From positions 27,936-67,221 of the forward strand of contig SUXO01000010.1 of assembly GCA_015060885.1 (NCBI GenBank): DNA of 39,286 nucleotides, in the 5' to 3' direction. Under the pieces are notes generated by a model. The model was not told the DNA's origin. It saw only the letters and a list, made by a program, of their open reading frames with translations, and ran no database searches. A program made the translations under genes and the position numbers. This DNA is from Bacteroidales bacterium (lineage in GTDB: Bacteria; Bacteroidota; Bacteroidia; Bacteroidales; Bacteroidaceae). Positions 11,364 through 38,713 of the stretch are shown here, one piece after another (positions within the stretch are counted from its first letter, which is position 1; the number at the start of each line of letters is the position of its first letter).

Positions 11364-11371
11364 ACAGACAG

Positions 11372-11400: not shown

Positions 11401-11404
11401 TTAT

Positions 11405-11760
11405 GGTTCATCTGCAAAAAAAAAGTTGGTGGAATAAAACTCTCTCACTTTTAAATTCTCGGTGGTTCGTGAGCTATTCTTTCTGTCATTGAATTTCTTT
11501 ATTTACTTTTTATCGCGTAAAAAGTAACTGAATAACCTTCTATCGTTTGCAGGTGAGCCTTGTTTTGCCTTGTGATGAATACCCCGGAATTGTCGGCCTT
11601 CACTGCAACAAAGTACAGCAATTGGCTTGTTTTGTACAGCCGTTATGTTTGTCAATTTCTTTATGGGAAAAAAATGTTTTTTTATAGTAAGATTTTGTGG
11701 GTTAATGAAATAGTTTGTCAATAAATCGTAATTAAGGCAAATGATTAGGTTTAAATCGTT
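11405..11760. other. Intergenic region with an AT hairpin and a short repeat remnant; no gene
   Basis: No convincing ORF is present. At 11503-11527 there is a perfect 10-base stem TTACTTTTTA / TAAAAAGTAA with a TCGCG loop. The string TTTGCAGGTGAG at 11546-11557, followed by a near match to TCTTG, recurs at 15546-15557 in the dispersed repeat, so this is probably a decayed fragment of that element. The rest is AT-rich leader for the downstream gene. Confidence 0.6.
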
Positions 11761-11768
11761 TATATTTG
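11761..11768 (+). promoter_or_regulatory. Candidate -7 promoter element for the dockerin/beta-helix gene
   Basis: TATATTTG matches the Bacteroidota -7 consensus TAnnTTTG exactly. It lies 17 bases before the ATG at 11786, implying a very short leader. No clear TTTG lies at the usual upstream distance, so the call is tentative. Confidence 0.4.
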
Positions 11769-11785
11769 CTTAAAATATTGTAAAA

Positions 11786-25207: not shown

Positions 25208-25209
25208 TT

Positions 25210-27228
25210 TTACAGGCTTGCTTCGCTTACTATGCGTGTGCGTCTGTTCTTGCCGCCTTTACCGGCAACGTGGTGGGGCAGCGGGTGGTTGTAACAGGCC
25301 CACACAAGTATGGCTGTGGCCATAACGCGGTCGTCGTGGTTGCCCTCGACGGCTCCCATCTCCTTGCCGTTCTCTTTAAGTTCATAGAGGTCGAGCTCGT
25401 ATGTGGTTTCAAGGCACCGCTCGATGTACAGTTCGTCGCGCAAGGCTTTCACAAGGAAGTTTATTACCATAGGCTTGGTGGAGCTGTTGGTGTGGAAACC
25501 CCACCGTCGTGGTCGTCCCTGCTTTATTTCGAGTTGCGACGTGCGGCTGTAAAGGTTGCTGTATTTGCCGGCTATTTCGTTCAGGATGTACTCAAAGTTA
25601 TCACCCTCGGTCCCGTCGGTTTCGAGAGTGTTCGACTCTATGATGAGCAGGGCGTTGTTGTAGGCACGGGCAATCTCAACTGCTTTCCAGGCAAGGCGGT
25701 CGTGCTCTATGTGACCGTGCCAACAGGCTGCAATTTCGGGTACTCCGCCGTCGAGCATCGCAAGGCGGTCGGCAACTACAATGCAGGAGTAGTCGGCCTT
25801 GTCGCTAACACCGCCTACATCAACGGTTACTATGTAGCGGTCGCGCAGTGTCTGCTCCTCATCGGGCATAAGCCACACCCACAACGAGTTTTCATCGCAC
25901 TGTTCCCCGTGGGCAGCCGCTTGAAATCTTGTCCTTTCCGTTGTGCGCCCCTGTTCGTCGGTGGCGTGTCCGTCGCTCACGATGTCGCCCTTGAATGGTG
26001 GCGGAACACAGGTGCGGCGTATGTTCTGCACATAAGAGAGGCGGAATACGCGGTGTCCGGTGCTTTGGAAGGCTTCGGCAGCGGTGGAGGGGAACTCCGA
26101 AAATAGCCTCCATTCGTCGGGCATCTCCCTGCGTTTTTCGCGGTACCAGGCAATCGCTTCGAGTGTAGCGCCCAGGGTGAACAGTTCTTGTTCGTAATCA
26201 TCGAGGCTTTCAATGAAGCTGTTGTAATCGTTGGCCTCAATGGGCTTGCTGTAAAGGTCTATGCTGTACCAGGGAATAAAGACCGGTGTGAAATTGTTTC
26301 TCCCGGCTACGGCATCAATCCAGGTGCGGTGAAAGAAATTGCCCACTCCTTTGGCGGTCGATTCGAGTACTTTCATTGTGTATGGGCCTGCTGCGATGGA
26401 GCCGAAGATGGACTGCACCAGGTCTTCGGGCTTGCGCCCCTGCGTCGCTTTCCACAAGCCAACTTCGGTAAGGTGGGCCATGCTTATGTCCTCGCTACGC
26501 AGGGAGTCGGGTTTCTGTGAAGAGCCAAGCGAATAGCGGCTGTTGCTCCAACTGATAACACGTGTCTTTTGTGCTCCCTGGTAGGGCGATGTGGTAATCT
26601 TTTTGCCGCCGGTAGCCCAAGTGGGGTAGCGGTTTATCACTTTTGCCAGCATACCTGCCACGATTGATGACTGTTTCTCAATATCGCCGCAAATTACGCT
26701 GTTCCAGTTCTGCTTGTGAACGAGTTGTATCCACAGCATATAAAGCTGCGTGAGCGTGCTTCCGCCCCATTGGCGTGCCTTGCACAGAATAATGTCTATG
26801 GGCTTGCCGGCAAGGCGCAGTGCTTCCATTGCTGCAAGGTATTGCCGTTGCGGGCGGTTGAGGGTAAACGGTATGTCACGCCCCTTTCCTTTGTCCGATA
26901 TCGTGGTCATACTCCTTGCCCAATATTCAAAATCGTGCTTTATTCGTGTGAGGCAGAATTCGAGCCACAATCTCAACAACTGCTTGCTTGTGGCTTGTGT
27001 CCCTTTCTCCTGCTCAATGTATTTGGGCGCACCAAGCCCTGCAAGTTTCTGTGTAATCTCCTCTTCAAGCATAGATGCGGGCAGGTAAATATATTCCAAT
27101 GGGAAGCCTTCAATCTCAACACGTTTACGTGGTAATGCCGTGGAACCTTCGCCCGTAATGGGATTATAAACGGCTGAGATTGCTCCCAGCCGTTCTATGT
27201 TCTCTTTTATTATTTTATCCTTTTCCAC
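25210..27228 (-). CDS. Phage terminase large subunit
   Basis: A 672-residue two-domain packaging motor. The ATPase has an adenine/Walker A region (IILCKARQWGGSTLTQ, phosphate loop 150-158), a Walker B-like strand (ISMAHLTEVG, Glu255) and a motif III-like LESTAKG (288-294). The RNase-H-type nuclease keeps all acidic residues: Asp470 (IVTVDVGG), Glu531 (LIIESNT) and Asp632/Asp633 (NHDDRVMATAI). Both activities therefore look intact. It is the last gene of the leftward operon, 12 bases after the preceding gene, whereas most phages place it next to portal and capsid on the same strand. No small terminase is certain; the upstream small genes are candidates. Confidence 0.93.
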   Translation of the reverse strand: MEKDKIIKENIERLGAISAVYNPITGEGSTALPRKRVEIEGFPLEYIYLPASMLEEEITQKLAGLGAPKYIEQEKGTQATSKQLLRLWLEFCLTRIKHDFEYWARSMTTISDKGKGRDIPFTLNRPQRQYLAAMEALRLAGKPIDIILCKARQWGGSTLTQLYMLWIQLVHKQNWNSVICGDIEKQSSIVAGMLAKVINRYPTWATGGKKITTSPYQGAQKTRVISWSNSRYSLGSSQKPDSLRSEDISMAHLTEVGLWKATQGRKPEDLVQSIFGSIAAGPYTMKVLESTAKGVGNFFHRTWIDAVAGRNNFTPVFIPWYSIDLYSKPIEANDYNSFIESLDDYEQELFTLGATLEAIAWYREKRREMPDEWRLFSEFPSTAAEAFQSTGHRVFRLSYVQNIRRTCVPPPFKGDIVSDGHATDEQGRTTERTRFQAAAHGEQCDENSLWVWLMPDEEQTLRDRYIVTVDVGGVSDKADYSCIVVADRLAMLDGGVPEIAACWHGHIEHDRLAWKAVEIARAYNNALLIIESNTLETDGTEGDNFEYILNEIAGKYSNLYSRTSQLEIKQGRPRRWGFHTNSSTKPMVINFLVKALRDELYIERCLETTYELDLYELKENGKEMGAVEGNHDDRVMATAILVWACYNHPLPHHVAGKGGKNRRTRIVSEASL

Positions 27229-27240
27229 TTTCTTCGCTAT

Positions 27241-27717
27241 TTATATTCCTGCCAGGTCTGTTGCACGGCGGTGCAGGCGATGGCTGTTGTATATTTTTGC
27301 AAACTGTTGCTGCACATTGTTGTGGAGAGTTGCCTTTATTGCCATATTGGGTTGCGCAAGCACCGGCTGACGCAACAACAGCCATTGCAGTATTGTCTCA
27401 TTCACAAGATAGTCGGTTATCGATTGTTTGAGCAGTGGCAATATGTGCGGTGGCACATCGCTTTTTGTATCAAAGGCAACTTCGATGTAGTTCTTTCCTA
27501 TTTTGTGTGTTATAGAAGGGAAACGAAGAGCAACAGCAGACGTGAGCTCGTTCAATGCTCTTTGTGCGAACATAACGAATAGTTCTTTATCATCGGTGCT
27601 GCTTTGCAGGGTATCGGCATCAAAGTCTTTGCGTTTTGCCGCTTCGCCCATATAGTGGTTCCTTAAATCGATCTGCTGTTGCAGTTCGTCTCTCTTTATT
27701 ATTATACAATGTGTCAT
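27241..27717 (-). CDS. Island protein of unknown function, family member 1
   Basis: A 158-residue protein, not recognised. The order of motifs (GEAAKRKDFDADTLQSSTDD, then FAQRALNELTSAV, then SITDYLVNETILQWLLL) parallels the next gene upstream (27723-28232) and the protein at 36699-37118, so the three are probably paralogues. Mostly helical with a beta-like middle; no signal peptide or membrane span. It lies between its paralogue (5 bases apart) and the terminase (12 bases). A virion or packaging accessory role is inferred from position only. Confidence 0.75.
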   Translation of the reverse strand: MTHCIIIKRDELQQQIDLRNHYMGEAAKRKDFDADTLQSSTDDKELFVMFAQRALNELTSAVALRFPSITHKIGKNYIEVAFDTKSDVPPHILPLLKQSITDYLVNETILQWLLLRQPVLAQPNMAIKATLHNNVQQQFAKIYNSHRLHRRATDLAGI

Positions 27718-27722
27718 TGCTG

Positions 27723-28232
27723 TTACAGGTCAATTATTTTATTGGGGTCTTTAAGCTCAATTACCGGTTTCTGTCGCAATGCAAACAATTCACGCAGCTG
27801 TTGTGCCATAGCTTGTGCCTCGGCTGCCGGTATCGCTGCCTCCTCGGGGCGGTGTTGCAACAACCATTGCTGCAAAACTCTTTTTACCGCATAGCTCTCC
27901 ATACTTTTTTCTATTCGTGAGAGAGCCGTTTCGGGGAACATTGCCGGCATAGGCAGGGTGAAAATATACATTCTGTCATAGTTTGTCGTTTCATCGGTTC
28001 TCTCTTCAATGCTGCAAATTGCAAAATAGCGTGAGATAAGGTTGCCCAGTTCGGCAATGGCATTGCCTATGTGGTCGCTTAACTGTGTGCTGTCGTCACT
28101 CGATACCTGCATCTGCGCTGCGAGTCTTTCGGGAATACCGATCTCTTTACGTGCTTCACCTGTGTAATAGGTGTAGATTTGAATTCTTTGTTCAATGTTC
28201 TTGTGCAGAACTTTCAGTTTAATCTCTTTCAT
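27723..28232 (-). CDS. Island protein of unknown function, family member 2
   Basis: A 169-residue protein, not recognised. It shares with the adjacent paralogue the sequence plan YTGEARKE - LAAQMQVSSDD - NAIAELGNLI - LPMP - KSMESYAVKRVLQQWLL, and ends in LRELFALRQKP, a match to LHILSLREKP in the 36.7 kb copy. Soluble, acidic-basic mixed, no membrane span. Cotranscribed leftward with the terminase; a partial operator-like motif sits just upstream at 28272. Confidence 0.75.
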   Translation of the reverse strand: MKEIKLKVLHKNIEQRIQIYTYYTGEARKEIGIPERLAAQMQVSSDDSTQLSDHIGNAIAELGNLISRYFAICSIEERTDETTNYDRMYIFTLPMPAMFPETALSRIEKSMESYAVKRVLQQWLLQHRPEEAAIPAAEAQAMAQQLRELFALRQKPVIELKDPNKIIDL

Positions 28233-28271
28233 AAGCCTTTTTTCGGCAAAGGTATATTCCTTTGCATACTG

Positions 28272-28286
28272 TGAGGTTGCTATTCT
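28272..28286. promoter_or_regulatory. Partial operator-like motif in the leftward operon
   Basis: TGAGGTTGCTATTCT matches TGAGGTTGCTATTTT at 37937-37951 at 14 of 15 positions. It lies in the 92-base gap between 28325 and 28232, the only sizeable gap inside the leftward operon, where a secondary promoter could sit. Confidence 0.45.
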
Positions 28287-28324
28287 GCCATTTTGCCGGT
28301 GTTTTGTGGCAATTTGGATACTTC

Positions 28325-28747
28325 TTATACTGTTGCAATCTTACGCTCGCGCAATGTCTTGTATATTATGCCGCGGAATGTTTCCTCATCGAGGTAAAAC
28401 GATGGTGCAGGTTCCTCTATGATTTTTTCGAGTATTATGTATCGGTAGTGGCTGCTGCTTTCCCGTATGCGTTTGAGGTAGCGGCTGTAAATCTCCTTGT
28501 ACATATCGAGCTTGTTCTTGTTTACAAGCGGAAGGCGTTTCTTGCGCATCATAGGTGATATGTAACGTCGCGCGTTTTCAAATGTTACATAGAAACGTGG
28601 TGCCTTTCCTTTGACCGCAGTTTCAATTACCTCGTTCTGTGTTGCCAGCGGGTTCTCTTTTCTCACCTCCCGCATTGTTTCGAAGAATGCTTCGATTACG
28701 TCGTTCTTGCGCATAGTGCGCACCGACCTCTTTTCTCTATCTTTCAT
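28325..28747 (-). CDS. Basic island protein, possible DNA-binding or small terminase role
   Basis: A 140-residue basic protein when started at MKDREKRSVRTMRKND (28747); the ATG at 28789 lies inside the operator region. Charged and helical: VIEAFFETMREVRKENPLAT, APRFYVTFENARRYISPMM, LDMYKEIYSRYLKRIRE. The N-terminal half has a helix-turn-helix-like spacing, and its place as first gene of the terminase operon makes a small terminase or regulator possible, but no family was recognised. Confidence 0.7.
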   Translation of the reverse strand: MKDREKRSVRTMRKNDVIEAFFETMREVRKENPLATQNEVIETAVKGKAPRFYVTFENARRYISPMMRKKRLPLVNKNKLDMYKEIYSRYLKRIRESSSHYRYIILEKIIEEPAPSFYLDEETFRGIIYKTLRERKIATV

Positions 28748-28773
28748 TTTGCTTTTGTGTTTGTTTGTGTCTG

Positions 28774-28814
28774 CAAAAATAATAGCCAAATACGGCTAAA
28801 AGGTTGCTCTTTTA
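28774..28814. promoter_or_regulatory. Operator-promoter for the leftward terminase operon
   Basis: A minus-strand -7 element TATTTTTG (complement of 28774-28781) sits beside the inverted repeat TAGCC-N6-GGCTA (28783-28798) and AGGTTGCTCTTTTA (28801-28814). The last two are shared with the control region at 37.9 kb. The 28748-29061 gap also must hold the rightward promoter, which I could not place with confidence. No gene is seen in it. Confidence 0.6.
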
Positions 28815-29061
28815 ACACTTTATTTGCTCGTCATTGTTAAATTGTTGATATATAGGGGATAATTTTTGCGTAAGATGGAACTATTATGCTTGCACGCGTA
28901 CCGTTTATAAATGAATTGGCAACTTTTGGCTTCTTTTGCCTCTGCTCACTTTCTCTTTTTTGTATTTCAACAACCTTTGATTGTCAATTTTGCAACCTTG
29001 TCGGGCGGTTTTGATATTTCCTTTGCCGTTGGAAAAAATGAACCATTATAAACTTTTATTT

Positions 29062-29853
29062 ATGAGACAGAATTTGAAAAATGAAACACAAGAACCTTAT
29101 TCCGAAAATGGAATCAAGGAGGGTGCGGCAGTTGCAGGAATGCAAGGCGTAGCCGCTGTTGAACAGCCATTGTCATTAGCAACTCTTGAAAGCGGGTTGA
29201 AGGAGCTGTTCGGCGATGATTTTGATATCAACGACAATGTGTCGCAAGAGGCTCTTTTGCAACACTTGCGCGTGAACCGCGAACAGAACGAGCGTTTGGC
29301 GGGAGCTTTGGAGCGCGATCCTCGTCTGGCGCAGATGTTGGTCGATATGATTGAAGGAAAACGTAATGCCCATTCGGCTATGGCGCGTTACTTCGGTCGC
29401 TCGGTTATGAATATCGACGAGAACAGTCCCGAATTTGAGGAGGTGATGCGTGCCGACGAGGAGCACCGCGATGAGTTGTTGCGCAATGCCACCGAGCGCC
29501 GCAATTACGAGGACAACCTGAATGCAAGCCGTGGTGTGATAGAGAATTTCTGCCGTGAACGCGGTTACGATGCGGCGACATTTATGAACGATGTGTGGGA
29601 CAAGCTGGTAATGCCCATACTGTCGGGCAATTACACATACGATGTGTGTACTGCGCTTGAACACGCAATAAATTATGAGCAGGATGTCGAGGACGCTTTT
29701 GCGGCAGGCGACATAAAAGGGCGCAATACAAACATACAGCGTATGAAGGAGAACTTCGGCGACGGTCTGCCGAAGGGTATGAGCAGTGCTGCTCCCGATG
29801 CAACAGCCAAACGTCGTCGCAACCCTCTTATCGAGGATGCCTTGCAAGCATAA
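29062..29853 (+). CDS. Probable capsid scaffolding protein
   Basis: A 263-residue protein from MRQNLKNET (29062), preferred over ATGs at 28981 and 29038 because the upstream residues are unlike the rest. It is strongly acidic and helical (LATLESGLKELFGDDFDIND; NREQNERLAGALERDPRLAQ; a RADEEHRDELLRNATERRN coil) with a short basic C terminus (AKRRRNPLIEDAL), as in many scaffolds whose tail binds the capsid protein. It lies 44 bases before the capsid gene. The call rests on composition and position; no scaffold family was recognised by sequence. Confidence 0.62.
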   Translation: MRQNLKNETQEPYSENGIKEGAAVAGMQGVAAVEQPLSLATLESGLKELFGDDFDINDNVSQEALLQHLRVNREQNERLAGALERDPRLAQMLVDMIEGKRNAHSAMARYFGRSVMNIDENSPEFEEVMRADEEHRDELLRNATERRNYEDNLNASRGVIENFCRERGYDAATFMNDVWDKLVMPILSGNYTYDVCTALEHAINYEQDVEDAFAAGDIKGRNTNIQRMKENFGDGLPKGMSSAAPDATAKRRRNPLIEDALQA

Positions 29854-29897
29854 ACAGGCAATATCTAATTATTTATCAATCAATAAACATTTAAAAA

Positions 29898-31520
29898 ATG
29901 AGAAAAATTTTCAATTTCTTGAAGGAGAACCCTCTCTTTGTTCTCCTTTCGTTAGTGAGTGTGGCGTTTGCTCTCTTTGTCGATGAGCAGGCAGGAATTT
30001 CGTTGGCAATGGCAACGGTGGTTGCTCCCGGTAACACAAAGGCATCCAGGGGTATTGCCGGCCTTCCCACCCAGGGCCTGGGCGATGCAACAACGGTGTC
30101 CAATGCATCGGAGCTGAGCCCCGACCTTATGGATGCCGACATCGACACCCAAATTGCCAGCATCGCCAGTGACGAAAGTATCATCGATACCATAAAGAGA
30201 AAGATACGCCGACAGGTGCCGGTGACATCATTCGAGGTCGACCACTATCTCATCGATGACAAGCGTTCAAAGGCATACACCAATGAAACCTATACCGGAA
30301 TTGGTGCCACACGTGCCGAAATCCCTTTCTCCACCACAGGCGAAAGAAAAATTTTCCAAGAGTATTTCACTGCAATATGCAAAGGCGTGAACGGCTACGA
30401 CTCTACCGGCCAGACCGAAATGCCCGGTGTCGACCTTATGCTCTTTTTCGTGGGCAAGAACAGTACTACCGAGGCTCCTATCGCAATGGCGGTGAATGGT
30501 CCCAAAGCCAACGCTACCGACGATTACTGCACGGTGCCCACAATCCCTGCCGGCACCGAGATAATACTACTCTCATCGGCTGCCTATGAAACACAGAAGT
30601 TCATAGCTCCCAGCACCATCGTTCCCGTTCCCGAACGAATGTATTTGCAGAAACAGCTATGCAACAGCATCGTGAGCGACTATTTTGCAGCACAGAAAAA
30701 ACGCATACAATTCAACAAATCGCAGATTGCCGAAGCTGTGTTGCGTCAGTTCCGCCTCGAAAGTTGCCGTACAGCCTGGGTTGGCCAGCCCGGTAAATTC
30801 AAAGTGCAGGCAATGGATGCCGCTATGGGTTACCAGTGGGACTATTTCAGCAAGGGTATCCGTTGGCAGTTCAAACGCCAGTACGACCTTTCGTCGAAAA
30901 TCACTTTTGCCGACCTCATAAACCTCTCAATGGTAAAGTTTACCGGTTTCAATTGTACCAAGAAGGCAATATGGCTGCTTGGTAAACAGTTGCTTAACGA
31001 TATCCAGAAAATCGACCTCACCCTGCACAAGAACATCAGTGTGGGCAGCAGCAAGACATTCGGCATAGAGTGTACACGCATACACACAGTGTTCGGTGAC
31101 ATCGACCTCATACACGACCCCACACTCGATGCGCTCGGATATTCTAATTGCGGCGGCCTCATAGATGCCAACGGCCTTGTACGCTATTACATGAAGAACG
31201 AGGACTCGAAAACCGAGAATGTCGATGGCGAGGAGGCAAGCCGCCAGGTTGTTATGACCATCGACTGCCTCTGCTTGAAGGGTTACAGCCACATATGGGT
31301 TAATGGCGCGGCTGCCGAGAGCGATATTCCCGGAACTTCACGAGTGGTGAGTGCGTCGGTGCTTCCCGCATCGCCCAAAACCAACGATGTGGTTGTTCTC
31401 ACCGAGGATGTAATGCACCAGGTGAATGGTGAGCAGAAATTGTGGTTTGCCGCCGGTTCGGTTGTCACATACAACGGTTCCACCTGGGTGGAATATACAG
31501 GCGAGATAATTGCAGCATAA
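29898..31520 (+). CDS. Probable major capsid protein with a hydrophobic N-terminal leader
   Basis: A 540-residue protein. Residues about 8-30 are hydrophobic (NPLFVLLSLVSVAFALF); then a start-like segment ATVVAPGNTKASRGIAGLP and the stretch SPDLMDADIDTQIASIASDESIIDTIKRKIRRQV, of the kind found near the N terminus of Bacteroidota phage capsid proteins. Central DIDLIHDPTLDALGYS is a typical capsid E-loop/P-domain-like run. Size, position after a scaffold-like gene and a separate following hairpin support a capsid role. The leader could be a removed propeptide; a Met at 38 could be an alternative start without it. There is no separate protease gene. Confidence 0.72.
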   Translation: MRKIFNFLKENPLFVLLSLVSVAFALFVDEQAGISLAMATVVAPGNTKASRGIAGLPTQGLGDATTVSNASELSPDLMDADIDTQIASIASDESIIDTIKRKIRRQVPVTSFEVDHYLIDDKRSKAYTNETYTGIGATRAEIPFSTTGERKIFQEYFTAICKGVNGYDSTGQTEMPGVDLMLFFVGKNSTTEAPIAMAVNGPKANATDDYCTVPTIPAGTEIILLSSAAYETQKFIAPSTIVPVPERMYLQKQLCNSIVSDYFAAQKKRIQFNKSQIAEAVLRQFRLESCRTAWVGQPGKFKVQAMDAAMGYQWDYFSKGIRWQFKRQYDLSSKITFADLINLSMVKFTGFNCTKKAIWLLGKQLLNDIQKIDLTLHKNISVGSSKTFGIECTRIHTVFGDIDLIHDPTLDALGYSNCGGLIDANGLVRYYMKNEDSKTENVDGEEASRQVVMTIDCLCLKGYSHIWVNGAAAESDIPGTSRVVSASVLPASPKTNDVVVLTEDVMHQVNGEQKLWFAAGSVVTYNGSTWVEYTGEIIAA

Positions 31521-31535
31521 AAGATGTTGAACATT

Positions 31536-31565
31536 GCATCACGCTCTTCACAAAGGGCGTGATGC
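31536..31565 (+). terminator. Hairpin after the capsid gene, possible partial terminator
   Basis: The stem GCATCACGC / GCGTGATGC, extended by three further pairs across one mismatch, is followed by TTAAAA and no strong T tract. It sits in the only sizeable gap of the rightward operon and may raise capsid transcript relative to later genes. Confidence 0.55.
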
Positions 31566-31583
31566 TTAAAACAGAAAAACAGA

Positions 31584-32009
31584 ATGAGAAAAAGAGTTAC
31601 ATATGAAATTCACGGACAGGTAGAGAGAAACAGTTTTTTCAGAGTGGGCAAGGTGCTGATAAGGGTTGAATTCACAGGCGGTATGATAAACTCCACCGGT
31701 TCCTATCCTGCGCAGTATACAACCGAGAACCCTCTCTATCAACAGGCAATAGAGAACAGTGAGGCCTTTCGCCGTGGTGAAATTAAGTGTGGCAAAGTCG
31801 ACATCCTCGACTCCGTTGAGAAGGATGAGAAGAGCGATGCCGGGAGTGATGATTCAGTGGCGGTTTTTGCCGATGTCACCAACCTGCAACAGGCACGCAC
31901 GGTCCTTATGGGCGAGCCGTATAACTGCAACCTTTCGGAATTGCAGAACAAGAATGCCGTGAAGGCTGTCGCTGCGCAGAAAGGCATATCGTTTCCCTCC
32001 TGGCTATGA
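31584..32009 (+). CDS. Small structural-type protein after the capsid gene
   Basis: A 141-residue protein. The N-terminal half is beta-rich (FRVGKVLIRVEFTGGM). The C-terminal third (VTNLQQARTVLMGEPYNCNL, then KNAVKAVAAQKGISFPSWL) is a short helical module ending in FPSW, recurrent in small proteins after the capsid in Bacteroidota phages. It overlaps the next start by ATGA (32006-32009), implying translational coupling. Head decoration or head-completion is inferred. Confidence 0.68.
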   Translation: MRKRVTYEIHGQVERNSFFRVGKVLIRVEFTGGMINSTGSYPAQYTTENPLYQQAIENSEAFRRGEIKCGKVDILDSVEKDEKSDAGSDDSVAVFADVTNLQQARTVLMGEPYNCNLSELQNKNAVKAVAAQKGISFPSWL

Positions 32010-32656
32010 TTACAACACAGGAACTTATAGACAAAGTCGCCTTTTTGGTGAACGAGCCCGGCAACGATTCGGCTATAACGCTGTTGAGCGAAGATACGCG
32101 CTCCTTGTCCGACACCATATACGAACTTCTGCCCGATGCAGTGATGTCTGTGCAGAACAGCAAGCATTGTGGCGTGCTTAATCCCAAAATCCATACAGCA
32201 ACCGATAGTGACATAACCGATAATGGAGAAGGCTGCGTGACGGTTGTTCTCCCAAACGATTTTGTGAGCCTGATAGAGTTGCGTTTCAAGGGATGGGCAA
32301 GGCCTTGTACCACAGTGGAGCCGCCTGCATCGCCGCTTGCGCTTGCGCAAAGCAATGCAAATACGCGAGGGGGCTGTTGCAAGCCTGTGTGTGTCGAGGG
32401 GGTGAACAGTGCGGGTTTAAGGGTGGTGAACTGCTACTCCTTGCCGCCGGGTGTGGCTCCTGTTGTGGAGAACTTTGTGTATGAAGCTCTCTTCGACCCG
32501 CAGGCAGGCCTGTCGTGCCGGCAATGGGGGCCGCTCGTGTGGGCTGTTGTCTACCAATGCGCGGCTCTTCTGTACAATGTATTCGAAAAGTACGATGCGG
32601 CAAACTCCTTTATGGCAATTGCGGCATCGTGGTGTAAAAACGGAAAAACAGAATAG
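32006..32656 (+). CDS. Probable head-tail connector/adaptor protein
   Basis: A 216-residue protein. The N-terminal helices (ELIDKVAFLVNEPGND; LSDTIYELLPDAVMSVQ) and the segment VVLPNDFVSLIELRFKGW resemble phage head-tail adaptor proteins that bind below the portal; VYEALFDPQAG and a helical C terminus (WAVVYQCAALLYNVFEKYDAA) follow. Five Cys residues make it unusual. Position after the capsid genes supports the role. Sequence-level family assignment is not certain. Confidence 0.6.
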   Translation: MITTQELIDKVAFLVNEPGNDSAITLLSEDTRSLSDTIYELLPDAVMSVQNSKHCGVLNPKIHTATDSDITDNGEGCVTVVLPNDFVSLIELRFKGWARPCTTVEPPASPLALAQSNANTRGGCCKPVCVEGVNSAGLRVVNCYSLPPGVAPVVENFVYEALFDPQAGLSCRQWGPLVWAVVYQCAALLYNVFEKYDAANSFMAIAASWCKNGKTE

Positions 32657-32660
32657 TGTT

Positions 32661-32942
32661 ATGGGTGCAAACAGAATGAAATTCTTTCCTAATGGAAACT
32701 ATTGGGAAACAGCCCCCTTGCAGTGTGCCGGGGGCGATGTGCGCGTGAGAATACATAAAAAGGGGCCTTATCCGGTCGATCTGCTTGTGAGCATCGACGG
32801 TGAGGAGGAGTATATAAAGTATGACGACTTCGGGCTCGACGAACTCAAAAGCGAAATTACTCTCGAAGGAACAATGGAAGGGCAGTGCGTGAAGTTCCGT
32901 TCGCGTAGCGAATTCACACTGGTGAAATATATGGAGCAGTAG
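32661..32942 (+). CDS. Small beta-rich island protein
   Basis: A 93-residue protein starting at MGANRMKFFPNGNYWETA, 4 bases after the previous stop. It shows a compact beta pattern (VRVRIHKKGPYPVDLLVSIDGEEEYIKYDDFG). It is not recognised. Its place in the structural operon suggests a virion or tail-fitting role. Confidence 0.68.
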   Translation: MGANRMKFFPNGNYWETAPLQCAGGDVRVRIHKKGPYPVDLLVSIDGEEEYIKYDDFGLDELKSEITLEGTMEGQCVKFRSRSEFTLVKYMEQ

Positions 32943-32946
32943 CCAT

Positions 32947-33420
32947 ATGGACACGATGAGATATATTTTTGCATCGCTTCTGGCCAATATCGCCGGTCTG
33001 CTCTTTCCCATCAGGAACGATATATTCGGGTTGGTACTGCTCTTTTCGCTCAATTTCGTTGTTGGGCTGTTTGCCGACCTGAGCAATCACCGCGATTGGA
33101 GTTTCAAAAAGGCATTCTGCTTTTTCAGGGATGCAGCGGTCTATTTCGTGATGGTTGCTTCAATGTATGTGCTGGGGCATCTCAAAGGAGAGGAGCAGGC
33201 TGCCGTACATTGCGTTTCGTTTATGATATATGTTGCAATCTATTTCTACGGTACAAATATCCTGCGCAACGCACGTATGCTCACACAGGAGCACAGCACA
33301 TTGTTCAGGATACTCGATTTCCTATACTATGTTTTGAGTTTTAAGGTAGTAGGGAAGTATGGTTACTTGAAGAGTTATATGGAGTCGTATGAAAAGGATA
33401 AGAAAAATATGGTGGTGTAG
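32947..33420 (+). CDS. Holin-like membrane protein
   Basis: A 157-residue protein with four hydrophobic segments (about 5-20, 26-44, 60-80, 90-105) and a charged C terminus (KSYMESYEKDKKNMVV). The loop FVVGLFADLSNHRDWSFKKAFCFFRDAAVY has the layout of Bacteroidota phage holin family proteins, where a basic stretch follows the second span. It overlaps the spanin-like gene by 32 bases, forming a lysis cassette. Role as holin is inferred from topology and context. Confidence 0.65.
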   Translation: MDTMRYIFASLLANIAGLLFPIRNDIFGLVLLFSLNFVVGLFADLSNHRDWSFKKAFCFFRDAAVYFVMVASMYVLGHLKGEEQAAVHCVSFMIYVAIYFYGTNILRNARMLTQEHSTLFRILDFLYYVLSFKVVGKYGYLKSYMESYEKDKKNMVV

Positions 33421-33784
33421 TATGCTGTTTCTCTTTGCCGCTTGCGTTACGGGCGGCAACAGAGAGGTGCTGCACGGCTCGCATAACAACAGGGCGGAAC
33501 GTGTGGTGCGCGATAGCATATATCTGCGCGACAGTGTATTTGTTGCAATGCGTGCCGACACTGTGTTCTACGAGAAGCAGAGAACTGTTTTCCGCGACAG
33601 GTTGAGCATTGATACCTTTATCGTGTGCGACACGCTCTTCAAGGAGCGTGTGGTTACAGTGGAGAAGGTGGTGAAACAGTATCCCTCTCCCTGGTTCTTG
33701 CTGTCGGCAGTAGTGTTGTATGTGGCTTGGCGCAAAGGTGTTCTGCACCGTTTGTGGAGCCTGTTGAAAGTTTTTATAGGATAA
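33389..33784 (+). CDS. Unimolecular-spanin-like lysis lipoprotein
   Basis: A 131-residue protein with an N-terminal lipoprotein signal (MLFLFAAC, Cys19), a charged stretch of Asp-Thr/Arg-Asp repeats (RDSIYLRDSVFV, ADTVFYEKQRTVFRDRLSIDT) and a C-terminal membrane span (SPWFLLSAVVLYVAW, about 99-115) with a basic tail. A lipid anchor in the outer membrane plus a span in the inner membrane is the unimolecular spanin (u-spanin) design known from phage T1 gp11, which fuses inner and outer membranes during lysis. It overlaps the holin-like gene. Confidence 0.72.
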   Translation: MKRIRKIWWCSMLFLFAACVTGGNREVLHGSHNNRAERVVRDSIYLRDSVFVAMRADTVFYEKQRTVFRDRLSIDTFIVCDTLFKERVVTVEKVVKQYPSPWFLLSAVVLYVAWRKGVLHRLWSLLKVFIG

Positions 33785-33788
33785 GTTT

Positions 33789-36692
33789 ATGCAAAAGAGT
33801 TTTTCATTTAAAGGAATTACAAGGAACAGCGACAATCTCCTGGTTGCCGATGGCGAATGTATGGAACTTATAAACCTGCGGGTAAAGGATGGTTGCCTTG
33901 AACCCTATCCGTCGGGGTATAATGAAACCGAACTTGAATGTTGTTTCTCAAAGATATATTGGCATCCCGCTGCCGAAATGTTTTTGTGCCTCGAATACAA
34001 TAACGAAGGGCGGGTGTACATATACGACAAGAATTTCAGGATTGTGAGGGAACGCACTACCGGCGACAGCGTCTACTTCCCCTTGTTGAAAGGGGTGGAG
34101 CGCATAGAGTTTGTCGGTAATATTGTATGTTGCATTGCTGAAACAACAACATATTATTTCATATACGACTCGGTGGAGTATCGTTGGCTGGGAGCACGTC
34201 CCGATATGCCCGAACTCTCCTTCTCTTGCGTGTCGCTTGTGTATGAGGCTGTCAGCGATGATGAATATGTTGCCGGCTACTCTTATCGCAACGGAGATGC
34301 TTCGCTCCGTTGGGGAAACGTTGCAAAGGGATATTTCGACCAGGCGTTGTCCATGTTGCACAGTCGCGGGTATTATGTCGACAGGGCTCTTTTCCGCTAT
34401 GCGTTGAGGCTCTTCGACGGCACTCATTTCTGCTACTCGCCCATATATTATGTCGATGACGACAGCACGAATAACGGGCTTGCACGCGATGCGGCAAACT
34501 TTCAGTCGGAACCGTTGAACCCCGGTACGTTGAGCAGTAAATATGTGGCGAAGGTGCAGGGCTTCATCCCTGCTTTTCATTTGAAGAACCTCAATCTTGC
34601 AGCCTGGGAGAATATAATAGTGGGAATAGATATCTTTACCACAGGCTCCATCTATGGGCACAAAATTGCAAGGTCCAATGAAAAATGGTCGTCGCGTAAC
34701 GGTGTGTACCATTCCGACGAGACGGGCTACGAACGCTATGTCGAAAAGAGCGGGCAGGAGATACTGAACGACGTTGCATCTGCCGCCAGTTTTTATAAAG
34801 TGGCTGAATATAACATTTACGGTGTGCTTGTCGATAACGTCGTGGATGTCTCCTTGTCGAGCCTGGCTCTCTGCGAGAACCTGCCCGACGATAGCGGTTC
34901 GCTGGTCGATCGTAAAGCTGCGTACAGCTACTTTTTCAATGGCCGTCTGCATCTTGCCGGGCTAAAAGAGATGTTTATGAAAGGGTATAACCCGCGTGTC
35001 TATTTGCCTGCAAATGTTACGCCAAGCTGTGCCGACTACGCGCTTGTGGTAACAAGGCTTAAAACCACAGCCGGCATTTCGGTTGTTAAAAGGGAGTATA
35101 TAAGGGATTTTACTCTTGGTCTTGAAAACGGAGAACTCTCGATGTCGCCCTATATAATGTACCCCGATTCGCGTGCCTTTGAGATTACCTTCACAATAAC
35201 GATGGGCGAAACCACATACCGCAGAACATTCCCGTTGAACAGGCATAAGACACTTAACCTTGCCCATTATATAAATGCAAGCGGCAGTCTTTACGAAGTG
35301 ACGCTCGAAGCACATCTTGCCAATGGAGCAACGCCATCCTCTTATGCCGAAAACAATATCCTGGCCTACTTCTCGTACACACCGGGAGTCTATCAGATAT
35401 CATATGTCGCCAATGGTATATGGTATTACGAAGGGAAACCGTTTGTGTTGCGCGACGGCCCCGACGGCAACAGGTATTATCGTATGTTGTCAATTCTCAG
35501 CCCAAGAGCCGGTGACACAATTACAATAACAATAAAAAGGAGCTCTTCCATTACAGAGGTTACCGGTGTAGAGGATATAAAACTCGATGACACCTGGGAA
35601 GTGATAGAGGATATTGAGGATATTGAAGATATTGAAGAGGAGAATGCCTGTGATGTTCGTGCCAACGTGATGAAAGTGTCGGCAGTGGACAATCCCTTCT
35701 ACTTTCCGGCGAAGAATACCTATTCTCCTTCGCGCGAGGCCATTGTTGCAATGTGCAGCAATACTGTGCCTCTTTCACAGGGACAGTTCGGCCAGCATCC
35801 GCTCTACCTCTTCTGCCGCGATGGCGTTTGGGCTATGCAGAGCGATGCTTCGGGTGGTGTCACTTATGCAACGGCCCATCCCGTAGCCCGCGAAATATGC
35901 GTGAATGCAGCCTCGGTGCGCAGTGCATCGTCGGGGATAGTCTTCCTGGGCAAAAGGGGGCTGATGCTTATGCAGGGCAACACTCTTAAATGTCTGTCCG
36001 CTGTCATCGATGCCGATTCGCACTTTATGCAGAATGTGGTTGTGCGCGACCTCTTATATCGCATAGCGATGATTGCCGACAACCACTACTCTCTGAGCCG
36101 AAGAAGTTTCAACGAATATATCAATGGGGAAATTGCAGTGGAGTATATACACGCCGAGAATGAAATCTGGGTTTCAAACAATGCTTATGAGTACTCCTAT
36201 GTGTATTCTCTCGACAATGGCACTTGGACAAAAATATCGCGTAGCTTCATCTGTTTCGTGAACGCCTATCCGCGCCAGCTGTGTATGAGAATCATTGACG
36301 ACAAGAGCTATGTTGCGGTAATCGACAGGAATAATGTGGAGCCTTACTCGCACATTACCCTCCTTACCCGCCCGCAACTTTGGGGCTCTAAACTGCCTAA
36401 ACGCATATTGCAGTTTATGCTTCACGCAGCCATAAAGAGTGCAGCTTCGGCTCCCGCTTACTTCTATCCCGGCTTGGCTTGTTATCTATTGTGCAGCAAC
36501 GACGGTGTACACTTTAAATTGGTGGCAGGAGCCGAAAAGAATAAAGATTTTAATGATATTGTTTTCCCGTATTTCCCAACGAAGGCATACAAATATTATA
36601 TAATAGCCTTGTCGGGTACAATAGGCAATGACAGCCGCATAGTGGGTGCCGAACTCTCCATTGCAGCTGCCTGGGAAAACCGTTTACGTTGA
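33789..36692 (+). CDS. Large virion-type protein (967 residues), possible stabilisation or tail protein
   Basis: The largest island protein. The N terminus (FKGITRNSDNLLVADGECMELINLRVKDG) and the long alternating beta structure, including LAGLKEMFMKGYNPRVYLPA and DGPDGNRYYRMLSIL, recall packaged-DNA stabilisation or tail-attached proteins, several of which are large beta propellers, in other Bacteroidota phages. A run of acidic repeats (EDIEDIEDIEE, coded near 35605-35645 by 9-base direct repeats) splits the protein near residue 610. It follows the spanin-like gene by 4 bases. Family placement is by pattern only. Confidence 0.6.
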   Translation: MQKSFSFKGITRNSDNLLVADGECMELINLRVKDGCLEPYPSGYNETELECCFSKIYWHPAAEMFLCLEYNNEGRVYIYDKNFRIVRERTTGDSVYFPLLKGVERIEFVGNIVCCIAETTTYYFIYDSVEYRWLGARPDMPELSFSCVSLVYEAVSDDEYVAGYSYRNGDASLRWGNVAKGYFDQALSMLHSRGYYVDRALFRYALRLFDGTHFCYSPIYYVDDDSTNNGLARDAANFQSEPLNPGTLSSKYVAKVQGFIPAFHLKNLNLAAWENIIVGIDIFTTGSIYGHKIARSNEKWSSRNGVYHSDETGYERYVEKSGQEILNDVASAASFYKVAEYNIYGVLVDNVVDVSLSSLALCENLPDDSGSLVDRKAAYSYFFNGRLHLAGLKEMFMKGYNPRVYLPANVTPSCADYALVVTRLKTTAGISVVKREYIRDFTLGLENGELSMSPYIMYPDSRAFEITFTITMGETTYRRTFPLNRHKTLNLAHYINASGSLYEVTLEAHLANGATPSSYAENNILAYFSYTPGVYQISYVANGIWYYEGKPFVLRDGPDGNRYYRMLSILSPRAGDTITITIKRSSSITEVTGVEDIKLDDTWEVIEDIEDIEDIEEENACDVRANVMKVSAVDNPFYFPAKNTYSPSREAIVAMCSNTVPLSQGQFGQHPLYLFCRDGVWAMQSDASGGVTYATAHPVAREICVNAASVRSASSGIVFLGKRGLMLMQGNTLKCLSAVIDADSHFMQNVVVRDLLYRIAMIADNHYSLSRRSFNEYINGEIAVEYIHAENEIWVSNNAYEYSYVYSLDNGTWTKISRSFICFVNAYPRQLCMRIIDDKSYVAVIDRNNVEPYSHITLLTRPQLWGSKLPKRILQFMLHAAIKSAASAPAYFYPGLACYLLCSNDGVHFKLVAGAEKNKDFNDIVFPYFPTKAYKYYIIALSGTIGNDSRIVGAELSIAAAWENRLR

Positions 36693-36698
36693 TTTGTT

Positions 36699-37118
36699 AT
36701 GAATATAGTTGTAGATAAAAAGGAACTTTTGGCCGGCTTGCATAAATTGTCGGCTCATTTCGGGATGAAACTTTCAGCTCCCGAACTTGTTGCCTCCACT
36801 GCCGATGACGAAGAGAAAATCTCCATTATGTTACAGGCATCGGCAATGGAACTGCTTAAATTGTTATCGCCCTATGCAATGCTTGATAGTGATGCTTTTC
36901 AGCTCGATTTTACGCTTAAAATGCCTGTCAACTGGAAGAGCGGCAGGCTTGAAAGCCTGGCAGCCCTGTGCAAGGACTATCTGCTGCATTCGCTCTTTTC
37001 CCGCTGGCTCGATTTTGTGAAGAGTGACAGCGCAGGGCTTTACAGGGCGTTGAATAAAGAAACCGCAGCCGCAATCCTGCATATATTGTCGTTGCGCGAA
37101 AAACCGCTCCGTGACTGA
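36699..37118 (+). CDS. Island protein of unknown function, family member 3
   Basis: A 139-residue protein. KKELLAGLHKLSAHFGMKL, ELVASTADDEEKISIML, LLKLLSPYAML, KMPVNW and KDYLLHSLFSRWLDF then LHILSLREKP follow the same order as the two proteins at 27241 and 27723, so it is a shorter third paralogue. It is the last gene of the rightward operon and is followed by a strong terminator. Function unknown. Confidence 0.75.
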   Translation: MNIVVDKKELLAGLHKLSAHFGMKLSAPELVASTADDEEKISIMLQASAMELLKLLSPYAMLDSDAFQLDFTLKMPVNWKSGRLESLAALCKDYLLHSLFSRWLDFVKSDSAGLYRALNKETAAAILHILSLREKPLRD

Positions 37119-37123
37119 ACGGG

Positions 37124-37168
37124 ATAATCAAAAAAAAAGCGAAGAATTCTTCGCTTTTTTTTGATTAT
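37124..37168. terminator. Bidirectional terminator of the structural operon
   Basis: GCGAAGAATTCTTCGC (37139-37154) is a perfect palindrome flanked by nine A and eight T, with outer AATC/GATT pairing. It serves the rightward operon and the convergent leftward pair, whose last stop codon lies inside it. Confidence 0.92.
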
Positions 37169-37380
37169 TGTACAGCCAGCTTTTTCCTTGAATACCGCCG
37201 GTTGGTCTCTTTTATGATATCTTTTTTGTTCCGTCCTATATATATGCTGCATACGGCAAATATAATGAACGCTACGATAAAAGTAATGCTCGATATTGTG
37301 TTTTCCAAAAATCCTTCTGCACTTCCTATTATAAGTGCAAGGCTTATGAGCTGTATTGTAATGAGTGTGTCTGCTTTCAT
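37165..37380 (-). CDS. Small two-span membrane protein
   Basis: A 71-residue protein from MKADTLITIQ (37380). The upstream in-frame Met would add 95 residues that overlap the previous gene and look unlike coding sequence. Residues about 5-22 and 29-48 are hydrophobic with a short acidic link; the tail is basic (GRNKKDIIKETNRRYSRKKL). Size and topology fit a second holin, an antiholin or a superinfection-exclusion type protein; no family can be named. It lies 8 bases after its partner gene. Confidence 0.62.
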   Translation of the reverse strand: MKADTLITIQLISLALIIGSAEGFLENTISSITFIVAFIIFAVCSIYIGRNKKDIIKETNRRYSRKKLAVQ

Positions 37381-37388
37381 AATGGGTG

Positions 37389-37772
37389 TTACTTGTTGTT
37401 TTCGAATGACCAATATATAAGCCCGCTCCCTGCGGTATCGCCGCTCTTGGTTTTGAGCGTTGCCTGGCTTATCAGTTTCCCTTTGCGCAGTAGCAGGACT
37501 TTGCCAATCTCGTTTTTCCCTCCTTCGTGCGGCAATCTTTTTATTTCCATCCTGTATCGGTTGAGTTTTAGTATCCTGCTTCTTTCCCCCAGGAAGTCCT
37601 TGACAAAATCCTCGTCTTTGTATTTGTCGTAAATATGATAACTCTCCGTGAGGTTGCTTGTCCACTCCCGTTTATGCCTGAAAACGTGTAGCAGATGTTC
37701 TGCCCATTCAAGACATTTTTCTGCTATGCAGTCGCATAAATGTCTGCTTTTGCCAACTTCTCTACTTCTCAT
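37389..37772 (-). CDS. Island early-region protein of unknown function
   Basis: A 127-residue protein from MRSREVGKSRHLCDCIAEKC (37772); the longer frame to 37892 enters the operator region. It is basic, with a Cys-rich start, then EDFVKDFLGERSRILKLNRYRMEIKRL and the closing LISQATLKTKSGDTAG. Not recognised. It is first in a leftward pair that is divergent from the S24 repressor gene, a place often held by early or regulatory genes. Confidence 0.6.
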   Translation of the reverse strand: MRSREVGKSRHLCDCIAEKCLEWAEHLLHVFRHKREWTSNLTESYHIYDKYKDEDFVKDFLGERSRILKLNRYRMEIKRLPHEGGKNEIGKVLLLRKGKLISQATLKTKSGDTAGSGLIYWSFENNK

Positions 37773-37891
37773 AATTAAAATAGGTTTTATTTGCTTTTGT
37801 GTTTTATTATAATTTTTGTATGTTTGTCGCAGAAATGGTCTTGTAGCCTTTTTTTGCTTCTGTTTTCGGCTTTTGCAGCCGTTTTGTTGCA

Positions 37892-37979
37892 AAAATAGCC
37901 ATTTGTGGCTGCAAATATAACTTTATATTTGGTAAATGAGGTTGCTATTTTACTCCATTTAGTAAAAAATGGCTATTTT
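37892..37979. promoter_or_regulatory. Divergent control region of the S24 repressor, with operator motifs
   Basis: A rightward promoter is visible: TTTG 37902-37905, 18 bases, TATATTTG 37924-37931. A leftward -7 element TATATTTG is the complement of 37912-37919. Around these lie AAAATAGCCATT (37892-37903) and its perfect inverse AATGGCTATTTT (37968-37979), the near-palindrome TAGCC-N6-GGCT at 37896-37910, AGGTTGCTATTTTA (37939-37952), and TTTTACT / AGTAAAA (37948-37954 / 37961-37967). This is a dense, symmetric operator typical of an autorepressed phage switch. Confidence 0.68.
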
Positions 37980-38025
37980 ATAATTGGTCTAAATAATGCG
38001 CCTTGCGCTGTAACGAATAACAATA

Positions 38026-38658
38026 ATGGACAGAACAATAAAAGATAGGATATTGAGTGTTTTCAAGTTCAAGAAGATAAATGCCAACCGTGCCAGCCGT
38101 CTGCTTGGAATTCCTCAACGAACCCTCAACAGGCAGGTGAACGAGGATGGCAAGGTGGGTATGGAACTTGTCTATTCCCTGCTGAACACTTTTAAGGATA
38201 TCTCCCCCGCCTGGCTGCTGCTCGGGCACGGCGAAATGGTGCAGGATGCCGACGCGCTTGCAGCCGTTGAAGGCTCGGCTCCCTTTTTCAGCAACCTGCC
38301 TGTGAGTGCGGGCTACAAAGAGGCCTTCGACCCTGCGCGGGAGAAACCCACCGGCTTCATATCCATGCCGGGCCTCTCTGCTCAATTCTACTTTCCTGTT
38401 TCGGGTACATCCATGGAACCCGAAATCCATTCGGGCGACATCATTGGCGTGAACAGGGTGGAATCCTTGCGCGACGTGGACCCCGACAAGATATATATGA
38501 TTGTCACAAACGAGTCGCGCATGATAAAGCGTTGTCATTCCGACGAGAACGATGACAGCATAATGTGGTGTGTGTCGCCCAATTATCCCTCGTTCAAGAT
38601 TAACAAGAACGATATATGCGCTCTGTTCCATGTTGTGAACAGAATTGAAAGGCTTTGA
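38026..38658 (+). CDS. S24-family (LexA/CI-like) repressor
   Basis: A 210-residue repressor. Residues about 1-60 hold a small helix-turn-helix (KINANRASRLLGIPQRTLNRQV). A self-cleavage Ala-Gly lies at 95-96 (PVSAGYKE), and the protease has nucleophile Ser129 (PVSGTSMEPEIHSGD) and Lys168 (SRMIKRC). Ser-Lys spacing of 39 and the Ala-Gly site fit RecA-stimulated autocleavage as in LexA and lambda CI. The gene faces the dense operator at 37.9 kb, which suggests autoregulation. DNA damage should relieve repression. Confidence 0.9.
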   Translation: MDRTIKDRILSVFKFKKINANRASRLLGIPQRTLNRQVNEDGKVGMELVYSLLNTFKDISPAWLLLGHGEMVQDADALAAVEGSAPFFSNLPVSAGYKEAFDPAREKPTGFISMPGLSAQFYFPVSGTSMEPEIHSGDIIGVNRVESLRDVDPDKIYMIVTNESRMIKRCHSDENDDSIMWCVSPNYPSFKINKNDICALFHVVNRIERL

Positions 38659-38681
38659 TTATAAGCCTTTATGTCTCCGAT

Positions 38682-38713
38682 ATTATGGCAGGCAAACGCT
38701 TGCCATAATTATT
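38682..38713 (+). terminator. Terminator of the repressor gene
   Basis: The stem ATTATGGCAGGC / GCTTGCCATAAT has one mismatch and a 4-base loop, followed by TATTATATGG. A second hairpin (AAAGGCTT / AAGCCTTT, 38648-38670) spans the stop codon. Confidence 0.65.

Follow-up and report, generated by a model that had tools for sequence, protein, structure and literature searches.

Why would a bacterium keep the terminase, capsid and repressor genes of a phage, all open and tightly packed, with no portal, integrase, tape-measure or endolysin gene beside them? The question is raised by a compact island of phage-derived genes at positions 25,208 to 38,713 of a 39,286-nucleotide stretch of DNA (the window) from a Bacteroidales bacterium of the Bacteroidaceae (assembly GCA_015060885.1, contig SUXO01000010.1, positions 27,936 to 67,221). 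We propose, with a probability of about 0.7, that the island is part of a vertically inherited system akin to gene transfer agents (GTAs), of independent origin, whose particle would carry bacterial DNA. Genome comparisons show that the genes assigned to head, packaging, tail and lysis sit in separate chromosomal clusters, descend with the host and are under purifying selection. Of the traits by which a GTA is recognised, we found capsid, portal and terminase genes of phage type, vertical inheritance, purifying selection, and a distribution over more than one locus with no integration or replication genes of its own.

We compared 44 genomes of the window's genus, 11 of them of high quality; G000 is the window's own genome, the other G numbers are its congeners, and L and C denote loci and contigs. 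The island genes are present and open, in the order TerL, B, C and D (minus strand), then scaffold, major capsid protein (MCP), g141, g216, c14, holin, spanin, a protein of 967 amino acids (aa) and g139 (plus strand); 3' of g139 come two small minus-strand genes and an S24 repressor on the plus strand. In the list, BKO1-TP3 is a related Bacteroides phage.

25210..27228, minus: TerL, large terminase subunit, 672 aa (phrog_2, 4.4e-20; G023 copy 38% identical to BKO1-TP3 gp51)
27241..27717, minus: small protein B, 158 aa, kin of C, order conserved
27723..28232, minus: small protein C, 169 aa (phrog_19255, 5e-10; G023 copy matches BKO1-TP3 gp36, 5e-8)
28325..28789, minus: protein D, 154 aa, first gene of the terminase operon (phrog_27246, 6e-13; kin of BKO1-TP3 gp49)
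28783..28798: candidate operator TAGCC-N6-GGCTA at the divergent structural promoter, overlapping the D start; exact there in 11 genomes
28981..29853, plus: scaffold/head gene, at most 290 aa, start codon uncertain (phrog_22323, 2e-12; "scaffold" by position)
29898..31520, plus: MCP, 540 aa, by profiles and phage homologues
31584..32009, plus: virion-type protein g141, behind the capsid gene in islands and phages; no Pfam match
32006..32656, plus: connector-type protein g216 (phrog_22135, 8e-9; same family as BKO1-TP3 gp45; role by position)
32661..32942, plus: small protein c14, about 93 aa, family c14; phages have other, often large, genes there
32947..33420, plus: holin-like membrane protein (Phage_holin_4_1, 0.0012, 19.3 bits, cut-off 22.2; family of 19)
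33389..33784, plus: u-spanin-like lipoprotein with lipobox-like N-terminus and C-terminal membrane segment; putative function
33789..36692, plus: 967-aa tail/ring protein, fast evolving (phrog_32516, 2e-50)
36699..37118, plus: small protein g139, clustering with B and C; no Pfam match
37126..37166: inverted repeat between A and T runs, read from the sequence as a probable bidirectional terminator
37165..37380, minus: small membrane protein gx166/c18, matching 73-74 aa genes in G003 and G023; c18 has 11 members
37389..37892, minus: conserved protein gx167/c10, 21 members; no Pfam match
37896..37911: candidate operator at the repressor promoter, one mismatch; exact before the repressor in 12 relatives
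38026..38658, plus: S24 (LexA/CI-type) repressor, 210 aa (Peptidase_S24, 2.3e-9)

The initial annotation had read an intact-looking terminase, a capsid-type protein and an S24 repressor from these open frames, and each of them is borne out. In TerL, the Walker A motif (K150-T158), D470 and the C-terminal HDD (H631-D633) are invariant in the rows covering them of a 34-row alignment, one row being gapped at the last motif. The MCP matches Pfam weakly (SU10_MCP, 0.0066, under the cut-off), as it does the PDB profile of the major capsid protein 9in6 (0.0073); its identity comes from phrog_26635, matched also by the BKO1-TP3 MCP, which in addition matches phrog_1328, "major head protein". Profile scans recognised no portal, integrase, tape-measure or endolysin gene within the island coordinates. 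The 967-aa protein had been considered as a possible diverged portal; judged from its phage homologues it is not one: related phages encode both a portal and a separate structural protein to which it corresponds, and we describe it tentatively as "muzzle"-like. A profile search of its family against PDB sequences gave no match.

Phage relatives and a dispersed portal module

When 50,697 phage records were searched by tblastn, the MCP had three relatives and the 967-aa protein four, at 23-31% identity, chief among them the Bacteroides phages BKO1-TP3 (PQ571269), BS-TP4 (PQ571277) and BF1-TP2 (PQ571263). All three share with the island the MCP (24-25%) and the 967-aa protein (about 30% over part of it), and BKO1-TP3 shares additionally TerL, the portal (31-39%), the scaffold and D. 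They differ in their genomes of 64-68 kb and, for BKO1-TP3 and BS-TP4, in a portal near TerL and a giant gp55-type protein; BS-TP4 carries an integrase, unlike the island. The order in BKO1-TP3 is gp55, portal, two small genes, TerL, gp50, gp49 (the counterpart of D), scaffold, MCP, gp46 and gp45, and the scaffold copies of G003 and G023 match its gp48. Both gp51 of PQ571269.1 and gp7 of PQ571277.1 are labelled "tail spike protein"; the former matches terminase families, and the note on the latter gives terminase as structural match.

Two prophages within the genus, G039:C128 (L153/L190/L228) and G026:C6 (L039/L186/L226/L227), have related virion genes and a large gp55, and the MCP of G026:C6 is the nearest to the island's (74%). 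Pfam recognises a tyrosine integrase in G039:C128, and the G026:C6 contig carries a homologue 52% identical to it. Because such integrase-bearing relatives occur in the same genus, a clean before-and-after comparison is at hand. Among 2.9 million viral contigs, the window's MCP finds one relative (41%) and an MCP profile seven (41-63%), with six contigs carrying relatives at 60-63%; the BKO1-TP3 MCP finds 90 by the same method, of which 80 were kept. The portal adjoins TerL in G039:C128, in L044 and in five of the six mapped viral contigs; a homologue of the 967-aa protein stands between the two in the sixth (L248), and several genes do in G026:C6.

In the genus, the portal missing from the island is encoded at another locus. 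With the BKO1-TP3 portal as query, homologues at 31-39% identity, some partial or in pieces, were found in 41 of the 44 genomes (no match in G005, G013 and G015); G039 has also a prophage copy (64%) and G026 a second, prophage one. The absence stated in the initial annotation thus holds for the island coordinates and fails for the genome, where the portal lies on a contig other than the island's (G000:C55:28854-30794, 646 aa) and matches P22_portal (PF16510) at 1.1e-33, over the cut-off. The G003 copy matches phrog_156 (4e-53) and the solved portal 8jov (2e-7). Islands whose portal seems missing may, then, be parts of systems dispersed over the chromosome. The portal is the last gene of a module c23-c29-gp55L-portal (c29 is unrecognised in some genomes). 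Its gp55L measures 1107-1887 aa in 39 island copies, some cut by contig or stretch ends, and carries in G000 a Large polyvalent protein domain, LPD23 (6.9e-12); the phage-type gp55 has 4176 aa in G026:C6 (complete), at least 4071 in G039:C128 (cut by the contig start) and 5553 in BKO1-TP3 (by annotation). The gene ligA lies 3' of the portal, on the same strand and within 1.5 kb, in 23 of the 41 genomes; it is on the same contig and non-adjacent in 3, and on another contig or not found in 15. MCP and portal share a contig in 11 of 39 genomes. Where one contig carries both clusters on one strand, the ATP-synthase operon lies between them in eight cases out of ten (G003, G006, G022, G023, G024, G027, G037 and G041); in G008 and G012 they stand 12-14 kb apart without that operon, and in G035 they are separated by 103 kb on opposite strands.

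Much the same holds for the endolysin: absent from the island, as annotated, a gene for it is present in the window's genome between trmD and gyrA (G000:C5:77620-78045). Its type is that of the G039 prophage, whose profile matches the solved endolysin 7q47 (2.6e-19), and it stands alone between trmD and gyrA (names by NCBIfam) in 14 of the 19 genomes having it. The BKO1-type endolysin was rejected as the endolysin of the genus, with good matches in 3 of the 44 genomes and weak ones in 10 more.

When three phage integrases were compared by blastp with the 1751 open reading frames (ORFs) of the mapped, overlapping stretches, they found the G039 prophage's own gene and four ORFs at 20-31% identity, all on the portal side; the terminase-to-repressor clusters of the other mapped stretches gave no match. 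Placed on the maps by size and order, these are an ORF of about 400 aa after the portal, in ligA's place, in G011 (L163) and G012 (L170), one of 400 aa between atpG and c23 in G024 (L188), and one upstream of the portal module in G029 (L178). We read these recombinases as later insertions or remnants of mobility, since they have no single conserved position, and those of G011 and G012 may account for the lost ligA neighbourhood.

Selection and descent within the genus

Relatives of the window hold 42 collinear loci, 41 islands and one prophage (L039), and given these the island is more than a chance arrangement; 38 of the 42 come from records naming a ruminant host and four from records naming none. 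An MCP match occurs in 43 of the 44 genomes and an island-type copy in 42, including all 11 of high quality, at 77-91% identity to the window's where complete and with no internal stop in any; the G021 copy is two contig-end fragments (89% and 73%). One island MCP per genome is the rule, and non-island copies occur only in G026, G039 and G043. The 967-aa family was found by profile search in 42 of the 44 genomes. Across the family (399 genomes), 50 have an MCP match, of which 34, at 965-1034 bits, are from this genus, and the remaining 16, scoring 624 bits at most, are spread over 10 of the other 29 genera.

The core genes keep a narrow range of lengths across about 30-40 species and are under strong purifying selection. 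Taken as pairwise medians over pairs with unsaturated synonymous rates, the ratio of nonsynonymous to synonymous substitution rates (dN/dS) is 0.051 for the MCP (44 pairs), 0.061 for TerL (3) and 0.054 for the portal (6), next to 0.041 for rpoB (131) and 0.046 for ligA (8) as host references. It is 0.037 for the repressor (2 pairs), 0.083 for g139 (2), 0.103 for the 967-aa protein (2), 0.135 for g216 (5), 0.167 for gp55L (4), 0.172 for D (7), 0.179 for the scaffold (9), 0.223 for g141 (26) and 0.241 for C (5), which has the largest single value, 0.56. Among the larger genes, the most changed are the 967-aa protein, g216 and gp55L (median identity 0.41, 0.44 and 0.33).

The island genes are inherited vertically with the host, not as a mobile unit. 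FastTree phylogenies of genomes having both genes (20 to 42) show that rpoB and the MCP have 10 of 23 splits in common (n 26, shuffle maximum 2) with a distance correlation of 0.81; the counts are 7 of 23 for rpoB and portal (n 26), 6 of 18 for rpoB and TerL (n 21, correlation 0.36), 16 of 28 for ligA and MCP (n 31) and 15 of 21 for ligA and TerL (n 24). MCP and portal share 20 of 34 (n 37), despite their separate clusters. Label shuffles share at most four splits, and all 30 distance correlations lie above all 300 shuffles. Of the two host genes, ligA adjoins the portal and rpoB does not. The prophage rows (the second copy of G026, and G039) were left out of both the dN/dS and the tree comparisons; for rpoB, matched in 32 of the 44 genomes, 27 rows were used, leaving out the fragmentary loci L120-L122 and smaller pieces, and for ligA 33 of the 43 genomes with a match. 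A maximum-likelihood tree (quick search, long phage branches flagged, G021 fragment left out) unites 41 island MCPs in a single clade (SH-aLRT 99) that excludes the 11 phage MCPs.

Repressor, minor genes and a proposed mechanism

The S24 serine motif is kept in 21 of 23 repressor copies, and in 20 the [T/S/A]AG dipeptide, which we take, from LexA and CI, to be the cleavage site. A third one-mismatch TAGCC-N6-GGCTA site lies inside TerL, and in the window alone the operator is not striking, because 3 of 100 window shuffles reach three sites. Over the 44 genomes there are 73 exact sites, 23 of them, from 21 genomes, at the two island promoters (11 at the divergent promoter, 12 before the repressor), where about 0.2 of the 73 would be expected by chance, the promoter windows having been drawn after the motif was known. 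A reversed-pattern control gives 0-8 sites per genome, and genome-wide counts are not enriched: the position of the sites, not their number, departs from expectation.

These elements suggest the following course of events. The system would descend from a relative of BKO1-TP3 that had a portal of P22 type and was captured in the ancestry of this mostly ruminant-hindgut genus of the Bacteroidaceae and domesticated, apparently once. Its S24 repressor would sit on TAGCC-N6-GGCTA at the divergent structural promoter and at its own, and DNA damage would lead to RecA-triggered self-cleavage of the repressor and release of both promoters. Heads would then assemble on the scaffold, TerL would pack host chromosomal DNA into them via the portal, and the 967-aa protein and gp55L would provide tail and injection parts; holin, endolysin and spanin would lyse a few cells, and the particles would hand their DNA to relatives.

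Among the minor genes, B, C and g139 form one protein cluster (the G023 copy of B has a weak blast match to C, 9e-4). An island has as many as three such genes, with a pair of them separating D from TerL; at that place the related phages carry either a single gene of about 160 aa or no gene at all. D is by its position a candidate small terminase. We rejected c14 as a remnant of a phage gene, as it has no match among 219 phage and prophage ORFs. The spanin-like family has 21 members and no Pfam match; the four sequences inspected have a lipobox-like N-terminus and a hydrophobic C-terminus. The inverted repeat at about 37126-37166 closes the structural operon, and the two small genes that follow it on the minus strand, before the repressor (37165-37892), are conserved as families of 11 and 21 members, gx166/c18 matching Colicin_V far under the cut-off (0.0017).

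As to the surroundings, the window ends with its contig (67221 of C31), 628 bp past the repressor, so the downstream side of the island is cut by the assembly. The left flank consists of ordinary chromosomal genes, such as a Lyase_1/FumaraseC_C enzyme, an M20 peptidase, a quinolinate phosphoribosyltransferase, a histidine kinase with a LytTR regulator, and others. Further left, positions 3-6857 encode a very long leucine-rich-repeat protein of BspA type, which has a dockerin-like match and runs off the left edge of the window, and positions 9351-15082 two adjoining large Cthe_2159-type carbohydrate-binding proteins (670 and 1098 aa).

Rival readings, a second capsid clade and known systems

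Selection for a particle function, as first suggested, is well supported by the near genus-wide presence, the single island copy usual per genome, the open frames, the dN/dS far below 1 and the co-descent with host genes. The function could be other than DNA transfer: a domesticated particle may be kept for killing competitors, for immunity against related phages or as a compartment. Conservation and selection suit any beneficial particle, and the three most-changed larger genes named above fit such roles as well. However, the motor and nuclease motifs of the terminase, and the portal, are kept under near-housekeeping selection, which makes DNA packaging the simplest explanation, and among the scanned proteins we recognised neither tail-sheath nor long-tail components; we hold a particle without DNA transfer to be unlikely. 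An encapsulin requires neither terminase nor portal, and a compartment of this kind was rejected on the conservation of both.

That the parts belong to an active temperate prophage of high prevalence in the genus is very improbable. Its close phage relatives (MCP at 74% in G026:C6, 60-63% in six viral contigs), the cluster positions that vary by species and the recombinases that four genomes have close to the portal module would suit it, but the island occurs as a rule in one copy in 42 of the 44 genomes, with chromosomal operons between its parts, the portal stands at ligA in 23 of 41, and the MCPs form one clade tracking the host. Moreover, the 2.9 million viral contigs hold no relative above 63%, against the 90 found with a related phage's MCP, and the portal-side recombinases lie at varying, unconserved places. 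What we found is not a contiguous, integrase-bearing prophage of sporadic distribution, unlike G039:C128 and G026:C6. A phage satellite, whether dependent on a hijacked helper or packaged by the related prophages, is a shade less probable still. Helper-type prophages do exist in the genus (G026:C6, G039:C128); satellites, however, are mobile and usually borrow head genes, whereas this system has its own capsid, portal and terminase, and is near-fixed and split over loci; non-island MCPs were seen in just three of the 44 genomes. Least probable is the decaying prophage also considered in the initial annotation. The loss of replication genes, integrase, the large gene after g216 and over half of gp55 would suit it, but the core genes remain open at narrow lengths, and dN/dS in MCP, TerL and portal is close to that of rpoB.

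Several points weigh against the GTA-like reading itself. The particle, and its packaging and transfer of DNA, are predicted from the genes, and the related prophages of the genus might themselves provide such parts or draw on them. G039 has only MCPs of other types (40% and 26%) and G014 none, a diverged 967-aa protein lies on another contig in five genomes, and no small terminase was identified among the island genes. The endolysin gene is not universal, since 25 of the 44 genomes gave no match; it occurs in 19, including 8 of the 11 of high quality. No TAGCC-N6-GGCTA site was found at the endolysin loci, nor at the portal promoter except for one-mismatch sites upstream in G024 and G031. The four portal-side recombinase ORFs are 27-31% identical to the two prophage integrases of the genus, and their presence near the module weakens a plain claim of "no integrase". 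The portal matches in G008:C34 and G030:C1 each contain one in-frame stop, although the two loci yielded open frames (691 and 642 aa); the stop could stem from faulty assembly or be located beyond the gene. For several genes dN/dS rests on few pairs, because most synonymous rates are saturated, and the trees are poorly resolved, rpoB and ligA themselves sharing only 3 of 17 splits (n 20). Finally, a survey of relatives had been proposed with conserved flanks and dN/dS below 1 in view: the second was seen in the genus, the first was not, as the flanks of the terminase-to-repressor cluster differ between species, and so this cluster has been moved.

The capsid has a wider history in the order. 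An MCP search found hits in 20 of 393 Bacteroidales genomes, the window's included, counted as genomes with a hit and not as prevalence per genus. The other 19 fall in genera g58 (5), g51 (5) and g138 (4) and five singles; all their regions were retrieved (L341-L359; families f20, f22, f26, f29, f60, f68, f88 and f109), the G732 MCP not being recovered as an ORF. Leaving out G732 and the long divergent branches of G427 and G638, the remaining 16 MCPs are 52-95% identical to one another across six families (52-75% between genera), 23-27% to the window's and 38-43% to that of BKO1-TP3; in a tree that took 8 of the 41 island MCPs, they and G638 group as a single clade (SH-aLRT 97). Their cluster, scaffold-MCP-g216, is chromosomally embedded. 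It is directly divergent to what we take, from its Pfam pair, to be a class I fumarase gene in G643 and G436 (g58), G475 (g97), and G697 and G516 (g138), from three families (the neighbours in G643, G697 and G516 being assigned by clustering), with two genes in between in G615 (g138); in G542, G715 and G778 (g51) it has aminopeptidase P on one side and, beyond one further gene, ligA on the other. Within genera, six pairs of these MCPs have a dN/dS of 0.022-0.067, and three g97-g138 pairs have 0.184-0.218. Portals lie near the MCP in G719 and G718; TerL was not located within the retrieved stretches, no genome-wide TerL search having been made. This clade is probably an older, independent domestication, and there is an even chance that a single phage group gave rise to GTA-like particles in Bacteroidales on two or more occasions, one in the window's genus and one, probably much earlier, in this second clade. 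If so, capsid-mediated DNA exchange would be an old, inherited trait of the order.

GTAs are known from few lineages, and there was no Bacteroidota GTA among the matches listed in the largely open-access literature on GTAs and domesticated prophages in Bacteroidota and the rumen. If the proposed reading is true, a near-fixed, genus-wide particle system would add a route of gene exchange in a major gut order, and might account for the host DNA that virus-like particles from herbivore guts contain. A study of DNA packaging in the gut reports lateral transduction for Bacteroidota (PMC12946183). The same study describes FpGTA of Faecalibacterium, a two-locus GTA with particles and 8.4-8.9 kb of packaged DNA shown, locus I occurring in 12 of 12 Faecalibacterium genomes and locus II (holin, endolysin) in 5 of 12 (PMC12946183). 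In both systems the genes for capsid, scaffold, portal and terminase are of short-tailed-phage type and spread over two loci, which in one FpGTA strain are separated by about 125 kb; FpGTA differs in belonging to Bacillota and in its particles having been shown (PMC12946183). BaGTA of Bartonella is likewise genus-wide, of single origin and under purifying selection like that of core genes, and this conservation and selection were used as an argument for a conserved GTA (PMC3610622). It is coupled, however, to a phage-derived replication origin and keeps the same site in all its genomes examined, whereas the TerL cluster has moved here (PMC3610622). With RcGTA of Alphaproteobacteria, as that system is described, the likeness is in being phage-derived, host-inherited and encoded at several loci (PMC7947584); since relatives of BKO1 type were found, the origin of the present system would be independent of it.

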